Origin: Roseobacter sinensis
GTDB lineage: Bacteria; Pseudomonadota; Alphaproteobacteria; Rhodobacterales; Rhodobacteraceae
DNA length: 64,000 bases
Direction of reading: 5' to 3'
Assembly (NCBI RefSeq): GCF_025755255.1
Contig: NZ_JALIEB010000002.1
Location: forward strand, 287,282 to 351,281
The position numbers and the translations under genes were made by a program. Below are positions 32,107 to 64,000 of the stretch, one piece after another (the first letter of the stretch is position 1; every line of letters begins with the position of its first letter). The notes beneath the pieces are model-generated. The model was given only the letters and a program-made list of their open reading frames with translations. It was not told where the DNA came from and did no database searches.

Positions 32107-32182
32107 GACCCCCAAGGGCGTAGCGGCAGGCTGGACGCCGACGCCGCGCGCGCTATGTCCTGCGATGTCAGAGCAATGCAAC

Positions 32183-32205
32183 ACTTGATCGCGTCAAGTT
32201 ATACT
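32183..32205 (+). promoter_or_regulatory. Palindrome with candidate -10 upstream of the repeat-protein gene
   Basis: ACTTGA-TCGCG-TCAAGT (32183-32199) is a perfect 6+6 palindrome abutting TATACT (32200-32205), a plausible -10. It lies about 160 bases before the ATG of the tandem-repeat protein. No good -35 is seen, as for an activator-dependent promoter. The rest of the 258-base gap 32107-32364 holds nothing else I can support apart from AGGAGG before the ATG. Confidence 0.35.
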
Positions 32206-32364: not shown

Positions 32365-33414
32365 ATGACGAAGGTCATCACGCGTTATTTCGAGAGTACC
32401 GCCACCGCCCGCGCCGTTCGCAAAGAACTGCTGTTCATGCGGCGGTTCTCCAAGCGAATTGTTCATCTCTTCGAGGAGGCCGAGGACGCCGACGCGCGCT
32501 TGATCCGCGCAGGCGTGAACACCGAGACCGCGGAGGCCTACAAGAAGCGCTTGGCCAAGGGTGGTGCGGTGCTTATGGTCCGCGCCGGCTACAAACCGTT
32601 GAGCGTGGCGCAGACCACCCGCGATGTGACGGCCGAGATGGGCGCCGTGGATATGGGTGATCTGATCGAGGAGGTCCAGGTCAGCGACAGGGTGGACCGG
32701 CGGTTGAGCGTGCTCACCGACCACCCGCACATGCTGATGGCGCCGCGCGATCCTGATGCCAACAACTTCTACATGGCCAACTGGCCGATCCCGCTGATCA
32801 GCCGCCGCAAACCCTTTGCCATGTCCGTCTTTCCGCGGCATGCACGGATGGCGAATTTCCCGATCCCGCTGATCAGCAAGCGCAAACCTTACGATGAGTT
32901 TGCCTTCCCGCGACACAAGCGCATGGCAGACTTCCCGATCCCGCTGCTCAGCAAGCGTAAGCCTTACGACAAATTCGCCTTCCCGCGTCACAGGCGCATG
33001 GCCGATTTCCCCATTCCCCTGATCAGCAGGCGAAAGCCCTACACGGGCTCACTGATCCCACGGCACCAGCGCATGGCGGCCTGGCCCTTCCCGCTGCTCA
33101 TCAACGGGAAGACCGGTACAAATGCGCTGATACCAGGTGGTCCGAGGATGGCGAACTTCCCGATCCCGCTGATCAGCAAGCGCAAGCCCTCGGACGCCTT
33201 CGCCTTCCCCCGCCACGCACGCATGGCGAACTTCCCGATCCCGCTGATCAGCAAGCGCAAGCCTTACGATCAGTTCGCCTTCCCGCGTCATGCCCGCATG
33301 GCCGATACGATCCTGCCACTGGTCATCCGGCGAGAGGAGAAGGGCGAGAGCGCCCCACCGAAGAGAACCTCGCTGTCGGGGATGCTGGGTCTGCCCACGG
33401 TGGTAAGACGCTGA
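32365..33414 (+). CDS. Tandem 25-residue repeat protein with stress-protein-like N-terminus
   Basis: This 349-residue protein has no signal peptide. Residues 1-110 form an alpha/beta domain (VITRYFESTATARAVRKEL, LAKGGAVLMVRAGYKPL) resembling YflT/general-stress-17M domains; this is tentative. From residue 137 there are seven consecutive units of exactly 25 residues. Each follows the pattern M-A-(N/D/A)-(F/W)-P-(I/F)-P-L-(I/L), then a basic patch RKP, and ends FPRHAR; a degraded eighth unit begins at 33298. Unit 5 diverges (PFPLLINGKTGTN, LIPGGPR). The repeats are strongly basic. AGGAGG precedes the ATG by 6 bases. I know no function for it. Confidence 0.85.
   Translation: MTKVITRYFESTATARAVRKELLFMRRFSKRIVHLFEEAEDADARLIRAGVNTETAEAYKKRLAKGGAVLMVRAGYKPLSVAQTTRDVTAEMGAVDMGDLIEEVQVSDRVDRRLSVLTDHPHMLMAPRDPDANNFYMANWPIPLISRRKPFAMSVFPRHARMANFPIPLISKRKPYDEFAFPRHKRMADFPIPLLSKRKPYDKFAFPRHRRMADFPIPLISRRKPYTGSLIPRHQRMAAWPFPLLINGKTGTNALIPGGPRMANFPIPLISKRKPSDAFAFPRHARMANFPIPLISKRKPYDQFAFPRHARMADTILPLVIRREEKGESAPPKRTSLSGMLGLPTVVRR
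32773..33297 (+). repeat. Seven tandem 75-bp coding repeats
   Basis: Units start at 32773, 32848, 32923, 32998, 33073, 33148 and 33223, each 75 bp and in frame. The block CCGATCCCGCTGATCAGC recurs almost unchanged in units 1, 2, 6 and 7. Units 6 and 7 are nearly identical, which suggests recent duplication. Unit 5 is the most diverged. A partial eighth unit follows at 33298. Confidence 0.95.
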
Positions 33415-60206: not shown

Positions 60207-62135
60207 TCAGAATATGAACACATCCTCGGTGAGGTCTGTAAGCGATACACCGATCAGATCAATCTCATTCTTGCCATAAGAAATCTGAACCCGGCCCCAG
60301 CCGCAGCTTTCGATTGTCAGATCCTTGTAGCCGAGACCCGTGGCTGAGAAGTCCAGCGCATCGCGCTCCGCATCGAACCAGTAGATACGATCGTGTCCGG
60401 CGTCCTCTCCGAAGACGAAGACATCGGCGCCCTGTCCGCCCCACATCCGGTCATTGCCACTGCCGCCGTCAAGCGTATCGTCGCCCGAGCCGCCATAGAG
60501 CATGTCATCGCCCGACCCGCCGGAGAGCGCATCGTCACCCTTGTCGCCGAAGAGGCGATCCCGGTCTGCGCCGCCGTCGAGCCTGTCCGCGCCGTGGCCC
60601 CCGCGCAGCAGATCCGCGCCCTCGCCGCCACGCAGGTCGTCATTTCCGTAATCGCCATACATCCGGTCACTTCCCGCACCGCCATCCAGAGTGTCATCAC
60701 CGGCGCGCCCTCTCAGGTAGTCCCGGCCCCCGCCGCCGCCGATCCAGTCGTCACCGAAGCCGCCGCGCAGATGATCGTTGCCCTGCAGTCCCAAAAGCTG
60801 GTTGTCCGCATCCACGGCCCCCGGCGCGGCGCGCAGGATGTCGATGTGATCGCCACGGCCCGATCCGATCCGCAGAACCGAACCATCCTCGAAACTGAAC
60901 CGGTCCGCATCGAACTCCGCCAGCGCGCCGTCGAGGCTGAGGCTGACGCCGTCGAGGCTCAGCTTTGTCTCCGCATTGCCCCGCACATCAATGCCTTCGC
61001 TGAGCGTCACCTCAGCGGCCGAGGCCGCGATCTCGAAGCTGCCGGCGTCGGGGTCGAAGCTTGCCCAATTGTCATCGTCGAAGATGGCCGCGAAGGCCGC
61101 GGCGAGAAGGTCGACCGGCTCGGCGCCGGAATGCGAGACCGCAACTGTCACAATCGTCCCGCTGTCGACGTGTACGAACGTCCCAGAGTTGGTTCCGAGC
61201 GTTCCGCCCTGAAACCCGATCAGCTGTTGGCCGAAGACGATGCCTGAGGAGAGACCGAAGCTCTCTCCATCCAGGCTCGGCGTGCCGTCCGGTGCCCGAA
61301 AGTCCAGCATCTGGGCCAGCTGCTCCGGGGGCAAGAGTGTCTTGGACAGCAGCAACGCATCCATGAAGCGCACCATATCACCCGTGGTGGAAACCGCACC
61401 GCCCGCAGCCCCGAAATGGAGCGGAGCGTCGGTAACATCGAAGGGTTGGCCGGGGACAAGCTCCGCATAGGAGCGCAGCATCGACGCCGTCCCGCTGTGC
61501 GGCGCGAAGACGGTATCGGCCATGCCCGCGGGGGTGAACATCTGCGCCTCCAGCACCTCGCCAAAGGACTGGCCGGTCACCTGCTCGACCAGCTTTTCGA
61601 GAAGCAGGAAGTTGGTGTTCGAATACGCGTAGGCCTCGCCCGGCGCAAAGGCCGCCGGCTGCCCCGTCGCTATGCCCAAGAGCGCGTCGGTGCCCATCGG
61701 TTGGGTCGGATCGGCGAGTAAGGCCTCAATGAAGGCCGGCAGCCCGCCGCTGCCCGGCACGCTGTCGAAGTCCGGGATGCCGGACCGGTTGGCGAGCAGT
61801 TGCCGGACGGTGACCGTCTCGATGTTCGCAATGCCCTCCAGCCCCGCGATATCCATCTGATCCGCCAGCGGCGCGTCGAAGTCGATCGCGCCGCTGGCGA
61901 CGAGGTTCAGCACGACAACCCCGGTCATCATCTTGGTTTGCGATCCGATCTGGCACGCGTGATCGGTCGTTGCCGCGGCGCCGCTGGCCAGATCGGCAAC
62001 GCCGCGTGCCTCCGCGACAGAGAGCCCGTCGCGGTGTATCTCCATGAGAACGGCGGGCGCCGGCGTGCTGCCGTGAAACGCGTCGATGACGGCACGCGGA
62101 GCGGCTTGCAGGGCGCTGAGGTCGAAAACAGGCAT
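60207..62135 (-). CDS. Secreted serine hydrolase (beta-lactamase/DD-peptidase fold) with RTX repeats
   Basis: This 642-residue protein has no N-terminal signal peptide, as expected for type I secretion. The first 340 residues are a class C beta-lactamase/D-aminopeptidase-type domain: SxxK motif GSQTK (Ser65, Lys68), Tyr motif YAYSNTNFLLLE, and a third block with HSGAEPVDLL. A beta-rich linker follows. The C-terminal part has RTX nonapeptides such as GGAGSDRMYGD and GGSGDDTLDGG from about 485 to 585, which bind Ca2+, then a C-terminal secretion region. Likely acts outside the cell on a peptide or ester. ATG at 62135; the frame to 62198 is less likely. Confidence 0.92.
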   Translation of the reverse strand: MPVFDLSALQAAPRAVIDAFHGSTPAPAVLMEIHRDGLSVAEARGVADLASGAAATTDHACQIGSQTKMMTGVVVLNLVASGAIDFDAPLADQMDIAGLEGIANIETVTVRQLLANRSGIPDFDSVPGSGGLPAFIEALLADPTQPMGTDALLGIATGQPAAFAPGEAYAYSNTNFLLLEKLVEQVTGQSFGEVLEAQMFTPAGMADTVFAPHSGTASMLRSYAELVPGQPFDVTDAPLHFGAAGGAVSTTGDMVRFMDALLLSKTLLPPEQLAQMLDFRAPDGTPSLDGESFGLSSGIVFGQQLIGFQGGTLGTNSGTFVHVDSGTIVTVAVSHSGAEPVDLLAAAFAAIFDDDNWASFDPDAGSFEIAASAAEVTLSEGIDVRGNAETKLSLDGVSLSLDGALAEFDADRFSFEDGSVLRIGSGRGDHIDILRAAPGAVDADNQLLGLQGNDHLRGGFGDDWIGGGGGRDYLRGRAGDDTLDGGAGSDRMYGDYGNDDLRGGEGADLLRGGHGADRLDGGADRDRLFGDKGDDALSGGSGDDMLYGGSGDDTLDGGSGNDRMWGGQGADVFVFGEDAGHDRIYWFDAERDALDFSATGLGYKDLTIESCGWGRVQISYGKNEIDLIGVSLTDLTEDVFIF

Positions 62136-62847: not shown

Positions 62848-64000
62848 CTACGCCCAGACCTCATCAACGAAAAACAAGGTGTCTCCAAGCGAGAGGTCGC
62901 CCGCCTCCACTGAACGGAAGAGTGCTATTTCATCCCCCCCAACCGTGAGGATCGCATCGGTTCCGATATCGATGACATCGACCTCGTCCTGCGGTTCGAA
63001 CCCGACCAGCTGTACCTGATCCCGGTTGCGGTTGAAGTCCGCGACCACATCGAAGCCGGTCTCGCCAAGCCGGAACAGGAAGACATCCGCGCCGCGACCG
63101 CCGCTCAGGAGGTCGAACCCGTCGCCTCCGGACACAGTATCGCGCCCAGCCCCGCCGGAGACCGTGTCATTGCCGCGATCACCCTCGACGAGATCCGCGC
63201 CGGCACCGCCATCGAGCTCGTCATCATCGCGCCCGCCTGACAGCGTATCACGACCCTGCTCTCCGAAGACCGTATCGCTGCCACGCCCGCCTGACGCCGT
63301 GTCATCGTCACGACCACCATGCACCAGGTCGTCGCCCCGCCCCCCGGCGATCATGTCATCGCCGCGGCCGCCGTAGATCGTGTCGTCATCGCGCCCGCCG
63401 AAGAGGCTGTCATCGCCGAGGCCGCCTTTCAAGAGGTCATCATCACGCCCGCCGCGGAGCGTATCATCGCCCTCGCCGCCGATCAGCGTGTCTTCATCTC
63501 GCTGACCGCGCAGGCTGTCATCGCCCTCGCCGCCATCCAGCAGATCGCCTCCACGACCGCCACCCAGATCGTCATCGCCTGATCCACCTTCGATCTCGTC
63601 ATCGCCACGCCGTCCAACGACCGTATCGTCACCCGCGCCGGCAATGGTAAGCCCGCCGTCGCGGTCCGTGACGATCCTGTCGTCACCGCCCCGGGTGAAC
63701 AGCGCCTCCCAGCGGATCTCGGCATTGGCGGCAACCTTGCGACCGATCTCGAGACCGTTCAAATTGCCGTCCTGAATGTGGATGCCACCGTAGAGCCGCG
63801 AGATACCGGCCTCTTCAGCGGCCTCGGTCAAGGTCTCCCACTGGAGGACCACGGGCGGCCCCTCACCAAAATCCTCGAAAACCAATTCACTGGTCTCGTA
63901 ACGGCCCAGCAGATCGGTGCCCGGAACGCCGTCGAGATCGTAATTGCTGAGCGACGTCCCGTCGTAGTAGGCGTCCGAGCCGACAAAACTCGCGATGGTC
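62848..64000 (-). CDS. RTX protein with vanadium haloperoxidase-type C-terminal motif (partial, 5' end outside window)
   Basis: About 384 codons are visible; the frame stays open to the window edge, so the start is further downstream of 64000. The visible N-terminal part contains EEAGISRLYGGIHIQDGNL, an SRxxxGxH-type motif seen in vanadium haloperoxidases and PAP2 phosphatases. From about residue 100 follow roughly 20 RTX units such as GGEGDDTLRGG and GGRGDDMIAGG, then RGADVFLFRLGE and a C-terminal FEPQDEVDVIDIG secretion-type region ending VWA. It would be a large Ca2+-binding secreted enzyme. The haloperoxidase name is inference from one motif region. Confidence 0.85.
   Translation of the reverse strand, partial: TIASFVGSDAYYDGTSLSNYDLDGVPGTDLLGRYETSELVFEDFGEGPPVVLQWETLTEAAEEAGISRLYGGIHIQDGNLNGLEIGRKVAANAEIRWEALFTRGGDDRIVTDRDGGLTIAGAGDDTVVGRRGDDEIEGGSGDDDLGGGRGGDLLDGGEGDDSLRGQRDEDTLIGGEGDDTLRGGRDDDLLKGGLGDDSLFGGRDDDTIYGGRGDDMIAGGRGDDLVHGGRDDDTASGGRGSDTVFGEQGRDTLSGGRDDDELDGGAGADLVEGDRGNDTVSGGAGRDTVSGGDGFDLLSGGRGADVFLFRLGETGFDVVADFNRNRDQVQLVGFEPQDEVDVIDIGTDAILTVGGDEIALFRSVEAGDLSLGDTLFFVDEVWA

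Follow-up and report, generated by a model that had tools for sequence, protein, structure and literature searches.

A head-plus-repeat protein family that accompanies LH2 antenna genes in Rhodobacteraceae and other Alphaproteobacteria

What is the role of a protein that joins a compact N-terminal head to a long, regular array of basic repeats and resembles no named family? The question is raised by gene X, located in a 64,000-nucleotide stretch of the Roseobacter sinensis genome (assembly GCF_025755255.1, contig NZ_JALIEB010000002.1, positions 287,282 to 351,281), hereafter the window. Gene X is the plus-strand open reading frame 32365-33414, which starts with ATG and encodes 349 amino acids. 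In the description that follows, the presence and position of this gene are compared with those of the genes for the LH2 antenna, which is generally pictured as rings of alpha and beta subunits; X probably coats this antenna or takes part in building it, and is probably not a general stress protein. The locus comprises the following parts, all in window coordinates:

32166..32183, plus strand: PpsR/CrtJ-like box TGT-N12-ACA (TGTCAGAGCAATGCAACA), right half imperfect, 199 bp 5' of the start codon
32355..32361, plus strand: ribosome-binding site AGGAGGG preceding the start codon, read from the sequence
32365..33414, plus strand: gene X, 349-aa head-plus-repeat protein of an LH2-associated family (open reading frame and homologues)
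32365..32700, plus strand: head domain, residues 1-112, predicted alpha/beta, perhaps distantly YflT-like (AlphaFold2; weak PF11181 match in 8 of 60 heads)
32701..32772, plus strand: linker, residues 113-136; an H-P motif is conserved here (alignments)
32773..33072, plus strand: units 1-4, 25 residues each, MA[ND][FW]PIPL[IL]S-x-RKP...PRH-x-R (repeat analysis)
33073..33147, plus strand: unit 5, a divergent yet conserved landmark, MAAWPFPLLINGKTGTNALIPGGPR (unit comparison between species)
33148..33297, plus strand: units 6 and 7 (repeat analysis)
33298..33411, plus strand: degenerate eighth copy (MADTILPLVIRR) and a C-terminal tail that is alike among homologues with 25-residue units (alignments)

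Architecture of the X protein

The repeat array starts at residue 137 and consists of seven 25-residue units in exact register. The first-pass annotation had described seven exact repeats; the number of units and their spacing are borne out, whereas the sequences are not exact, with a mean pairwise identity of 63.8% (mean 8.1% and maximum 13.3% in 5000 shuffles), and a degenerate eighth copy follows from residue 312, before the C-terminal tail. Tandem Repeats Finder identifies the array at 32772-33302, with a period of 75, 7.1 copies, 68% matches and a score of 358. Units 6 and 7, previously singled out as nearly identical, share 92% of their residues in the protein, and so do units 2 and 7. 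Unit 5 is strongly divergent, as originally noted, with 32-44% identity to the other six units, yet it is the most conserved unit between species (79% same-position identity over 22 proteins, compared to 62-71% for the other units); judged by this comparison, it is a conserved unit and not a product of decay. The basic character attributed to the repeat region is evident from the 35 K+R versus 7 D+E among its 175 residues and from a pI of 11.9, and the tail is rich in proline as well. No segment of X fits a membrane helix, the highest 19-residue hydropathy mean being 0.74.

Structure prediction separates the two parts of the protein. The AlphaFold2 model of the head, built from an alignment of 60 sequences, has a mean pLDDT of 88.9 over residues 1-135, and in the full-length model, ten-residue blocks score 71-94 across residues 1-110, with the predicted order strand-helix-strand-helix-helix-strand-helix-strand. 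From residue 141 on, the pLDDT is 31-42, and neither a strand nor a helix of at least four residues is predicted within the seven units. In these models, both of which are single-chain, the head is predicted to fold and the tail to have no fold of its own when alone. The solenoid considered earlier is rejected because no structure is predicted in the repeats, and no evidence was found for the polyanion binding proposed along with it. A Foldseek search of the PDB with both models produced no match at E<=0.001, and a sequence search of solved structures produced no credible match.

The only match in a Pfam scan was far under the cut-off (ribosomal L12, E 0.15), and an NCBIfam scan gave none; the repeat, initially reported as having no known family, indeed appears in neither database, and no description of the X family was found in the open-access literature searched. 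The suggested likeness of the head to YflT stress domains survives in part: PF11181 (YflT) matches 8 of the 60 family heads at E<=10, with a best E-value of 5.2e-4, and the head from the window itself has no match at this threshold. On these profile matches, the X head is perhaps distantly YflT-like.

Gene neighborhood and occurrence across genomes

Homologs of X were detected in 15 of the 59 genomes searched and, separately, in five named records from Marivita, Tateyamaria and an uncultured Roseobacter, with Marivita hallyeonensis DSM 29431 among the carriers; the lack of homologs that the first-pass annotation named among its refuting conditions is thereby contradicted. A profile of the head identified X in 48 of the 394 genomes of the window's family, which the named relatives indicate to be Rhodobacteraceae/Roseobacteraceae. 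Some X genes may be missing from this number since the family-wide and class-wide head searches scored at most ten first-look candidates per genome; the window's own genome is counted in both surveys.

Within the family, 57 of the 61 X genes are immediately preceded by pucC; the two genes overlap by 4 bp in 38 cases, and in the other 19 the gap measures -13 to 106 bp. At loci for which a wide neighborhood was available, the gene order is pucB-pucA-pucC-X, and pucA is found upstream of X in 19 of the 20 (two of them, L018 and L027, represent a single genome), the orphan L031 being the exception. The four X genes located away from pucC (the window copy, L031, L055 and L056) are all long forms in the sense defined below, and the genomes of the latter three also carry a short X behind pucC (L036, L069, L079). 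The 61-gene set excludes the duplicates L027, L039, L040, L041, L050 and L070; L062 and L069, for which the start was wrongly picked; and L081, L086 and the second gene of L052/L070, for which start picking left less than 140 aa. L064, a gene in two frames, belongs to the set and is outside the 60-row alignment; the head-profile match in G337 is counted in the family survey and is outside the locus set.

Two features of these loci deserve mention in their own right. In L070 (G277), pucC is followed by two genes in tandem, a long X and another gene that carries the head. The PucA proteins of L017-L036 and L122 have about 106-119 residues, compared with 48-71 in the PDB alpha chains matched by one of them; the excess is a long C-terminal extension.

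A class-wide search of 385 genomes with the head profile yielded 16 matches besides the window's own. Seven of these, picked by eye for their repeat-like tails, come from outside the family, and all seven adjoin LH2 alpha or beta genes; the other nine have neither a repeat tail nor pucC within 1.5-kb flanks. In the outside-family loci, X sits between pucA and pucB or pucC (for example, in the order pucB-pucA-X-pucB-pucA-pucC) or points away from pucBA; at L121, one of these loci, PUCC is matched weakly. The sequence SSFGLPLLSK occurs in some of the tails. In another alphaproteobacterial family, the LH2 loci L116 and L118 contain two pucBA pairs with X between them.

The distribution of X among genomes is in line with its position. 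X is present in 44 of the 52 family genomes with at least four LHC hits, which presumably represent LH1 plus LH2, in 4 of the 113 with one to three (G000, the window genome; G140; G168; G337) and in none of the 229 without any, that is, in 4 of the 342 genomes with fewer than four (Fisher test, 2.7e-45, for species that are not independent). All 48 X genomes encode at least one PUCC match. X is absent from the remaining 8 of the 52 genomes with four or more LHC hits, and the stretches around their pucC contain no ORF that matches the head profile; because of these genomes, LH2 can be said to do without X.

The window's genus allows LH2 to be separated from the reaction center. X is present in 14 of the 14 genomes that have an extra PUCC gene or, in the case of G000 and G016, pucC alone, and in none of the 5 genomes with a reaction center and only two PUCC genes; the puc-type pucC in this count was assigned from the number and place of the PUCC matches. 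A link of X to the reaction center was ruled out, given that PF00124 is found in 5 of the 5 congeners without X and in neither of the X-bearing G000 and G016. Thus, the presence of X follows the LH2 genes, not the reaction center, and gene order and occurrence together make for a strong association of X with LH2.

Tail types, selection and the window genome

Three types of X tails can be distinguished: long25, with 25-residue units; long15, with mainly 15-residue units (MAKFPFGHIVPGHKF); and short, with few units, many of which are of the type FWPMPLLS...SVIxGG. A different regular array, with about four units of the type RFGDFLFPLISKRKPWGLTVYKGTK, is present in L083 (G096), a short-form relative. 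In a tree of 60 heads, 31 short forms are split from 29 long forms by one branch with support of 99/97, and the long15 label switches at least twice on starred branches, the tree being built on few columns. In particular, L030, with 15-residue units, is placed beside L026, with 25-residue units, and both come from the window's genus. Whole repeat arrays seem to have been converted or exchanged while the head and the central unit stayed in place.

This central unit, of the unit 5 type, is present in 22 of the 22 long25 proteins and in 5 of the 6 long15 proteins, the sixth (L049) being cut by a contig end. In all 22 long25 proteins, its first residue falls at positions 233-241, and 107-114 residues extend from that point to the C-terminus; the corresponding values for the four complete long15 proteins are 251-253 and 98-115. 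The array length in the long forms is about 190-230 residues. Among the 132 ordinary long25 units, His occurs in 97%, and Ser at its commonest position in 46%. A role of this His as a universal bacteriochlorophyll (BChl) ligand is not supported, given its absence from unit 5 and its lack of conservation in the short forms.

The dN/dS ratios for the head and the repeats range from 0.04 to 0.19 in five gene pairs, values that are rough since pS reaches 0.70, near saturation; taken as such, they point to purifying selection on both parts. For the window X compared to two congeners, the ratios are 0.07-0.19.

In the window genome, X is an orphan long form, and pucBAC resides on another contig (C69:120248-122187; L037) with no X behind it. 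The next gene after pucBAC there, which we take to be dnaB, is also present in congener G011, where it comes after pucC and a short X. The pucB, pucA and pucC reading frames are open both in G000 (L037) and in G016 (L022), and neither assembly contains a match to the reaction center (PF00124) or to BchY. Either the photosynthesis cluster has been lost or remained unassembled in these two genomes, or they harbor a real orphan antenna. A plasmid location was considered and discarded, with no match at E<=1e-5 among 72,556 PLSDB records. Elsewhere in the window, 27-bp tandem arrays are found at 60462-60554 and 63328-63534; read on the minus strand, they may encode RTX-type repeats of nine residues.

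The box upstream of the window X has the TGT-N12-ACA pattern, which we take to be the PpsR/CrtJ motif. Of 5000 stretches of 258 bp drawn at random from the window, 2.2% contain this pattern, and one to three copies lie within 400 bp 5' of pucB in 20 of the 20 promoters found by our script (with L018 and L027 representing one genome, and L021 and L031 giving no pucB row). The orphan X of L031 has such a box 348 bp upstream, and the orphans of L055 and L056 have no PpsR-like box within 400 bp.

Possible roles of X and comparison with known systems

On balance, and with moderate confidence, we favor the view that X is an LH2 accessory protein whose tail extends along the LH2 ring or the surrounding lipid head groups and stabilizes the ring. 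The tail would lie extended along the cytoplasmic rim of the ring, or on lipid head groups nearby, where the repeated F/W-P-x-P-L-(I/L)-S and basic motifs could provide evenly spaced contacts to successive alpha-beta pairs, by analogy with the gamma chain discussed below. Such a ribbon would stabilize the LH2 ring and, more speculatively, might add bacteriochlorophyll at one residue per unit. The head would serve to dock this ribbon or to cap it at one end. The unfolded prediction for the tail alone agrees with a ribbon but proves nothing, and against it stand the four long X genes, the window copy included, that lie away from pucC, two of them without a PpsR-like box within 400 bp.

The main rival, which we regard as rather unlikely, is that X acts in LH2 assembly alongside the membrane protein PucC: it would hold nascent PucA/PucB or BChl at the membrane while the ring is being built, through repeats acting as several low-affinity docking sites, and would be absent from the finished complex. 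The overlap of X in 38 of the 61 genes with pucC, and not with pucBA, the basic, proline-rich tail and the tolerated absence of X from 8 of the 52 genomes are all compatible with such a factor. However, the nearly fixed place of the central unit and of the length behind it in 22 proteins better suits a structural ruler, and in the loci outside the family, with X inserted between pucA and pucB or pucC, or oriented away from pucBA, the overlap behind pucC is not the rule.

That X links LH2 rings to each other or LH2 to LH1, with the arrays flanking a hinge-like central unit binding two rings and organizing the antenna lattice, appears improbable. The central unit does divide the array in 27 of the 28 long forms (the remaining one is cut), and the array is longer than the 97-residue gamma chain, but the short forms, with few units and no such central unit, do not fit a linker of this kind.

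Very little weight can be given to the view that X is a YflT-type protein of general or photo-oxidative stress that uses its basic tail to bind nucleic acid or lipid. The weak PF11181 similarity of some heads and the resemblance by eye of some class-wide head matches to generic stress-type proteins speak for it; this reading, close to that of the first-pass annotation, is nevertheless rejected as the main one because X goes with the LH2 genes, its occurrence tracking LHC genes and its position tracking pucC, and the nine class-wide matches that lack repeats also lack pucC in their flanks. For the window copy only, persistence as a relic without present function in a cell that cannot make bacteriochlorophyll is hardly credible: the missing PF00124 and BchY matches and the separation from an X-less pucBAC would fit, but X and pucBAC are open, the dN/dS ratios against congeners are low at 0.07-0.19, and the photosynthesis cluster may have been missed in the assembly or may have disappeared during cultivation.

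Whether X wraps the ring or assists its assembly, the family, unnamed in Pfam and NCBIfam, accompanies LHC genes in 44 of the 52 sampled family genomes with at least four of them and stands beside LH2 genes in other alphaproteobacterial families as well. X is a direct candidate for an extra LH2 subunit or assembly factor of aerobic phototrophs. Because the length of its array hardly varies, the idea of a molecular ruler on a pigment ring can be put to the test.

Among the systems with which X can be compared, YflT (PF11181), a heat-induced stress protein, shares with it the weak profile likeness of 8 of the 60 heads, and differs in that the window X has no PF11181 match and that neither the tail nor the gene context is like that of a stress protein. 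In Rhodobacter capsulatus, the PucD/PucE genes are located downstream of pucBAC in the puc operon and account for the 14-kDa LH2 gamma chain; their sizes presumably differ from that of X. The puc operon of Dinoroseobacter shibae is given as Dshi_2897-2900, locus tags that span four genes, and its transcripts are lower in the light and higher in a ppsR mutant (PMC10890935).

The closest parallel is the gamma chain of Rhodopseudomonas palustris LH2 (RPA1495; PDB 7zcu, 7zdi, 7ze3, 7ze8). The 2022 paper describes gamma as an extended ribbon with six repeats, located close to the cytoplasmic side, which surrounds six of the nine LH2 alpha-beta pairs and binds six BChl; it reports gamma in Rhodopseudomonas only (PMC9618040). 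Both X and gamma go with LH2 and consist of tandem repeats, most of whose units contain an aromatic residue followed by P-L-(I/L), and both lack regular secondary structure, gamma being extended in the complex and the X tail having none predicted. In contrast, gamma (chain 7zcu_S, 97 aa) is headless and built of six 16-residue units, whereas X combines units of 25 or 15 residues with a head, about 110 residues long, that is predicted to fold; Ser is the BChl ligand in the gamma units, but is found at its commonest position in 46% of the ordinary long25 units, and an array of approximately fourteen 15-residue units cannot be matched one to one with a nonamer.

Profile comparison of the repeats, with cores picked by pattern and decoys taken from six-frame ORFs, gave mixed results. 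With the long25 profile, the score of the best site in gamma was equaled by 350 of 1000 shuffles and by 2102 of 3787 decoys, and with the non-Rhodobacteraceae profile by 157 of 1000 shuffles and by 221 of 3787 decoys; with these two profiles no better than chance, repeat homology between X and gamma was not shown by this test. For the short-form profile, the respective numbers are 1 of 1000 and 55 of 3787, a likeness in sequence that is suggestive only. Sums over five sites were equaled by 0, 0 and 23 of 1000 shuffles and by 1, 7 and 634 of 3787 decoys (non-Rhodobacteraceae, short and long25, respectively), and were set aside because gamma repeats itself, so that one chance match counts five times. 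A search of 17 genomes of family f16 for gamma, conducted without a positive control, found none. Since the long25 and non-Rhodobacteraceae profiles are at the level of chance and the short form is only suggestive, X is not classed as gamma; by analogy, it may work like gamma all the same.

A broader proposal, which we make tentatively as a possibility, is that X founds a widespread alphaproteobacterial family of head-anchored, modular, repeat-counted LH2 ribbon subunits that wrap, measure or bridge rings, maybe with extra bacteriochlorophyll, and in which different clades use units of 25, 15 or other lengths. The gamma chain of R. palustris would then be a headless or convergent example of such ribbons and not the curiosity of one genus.
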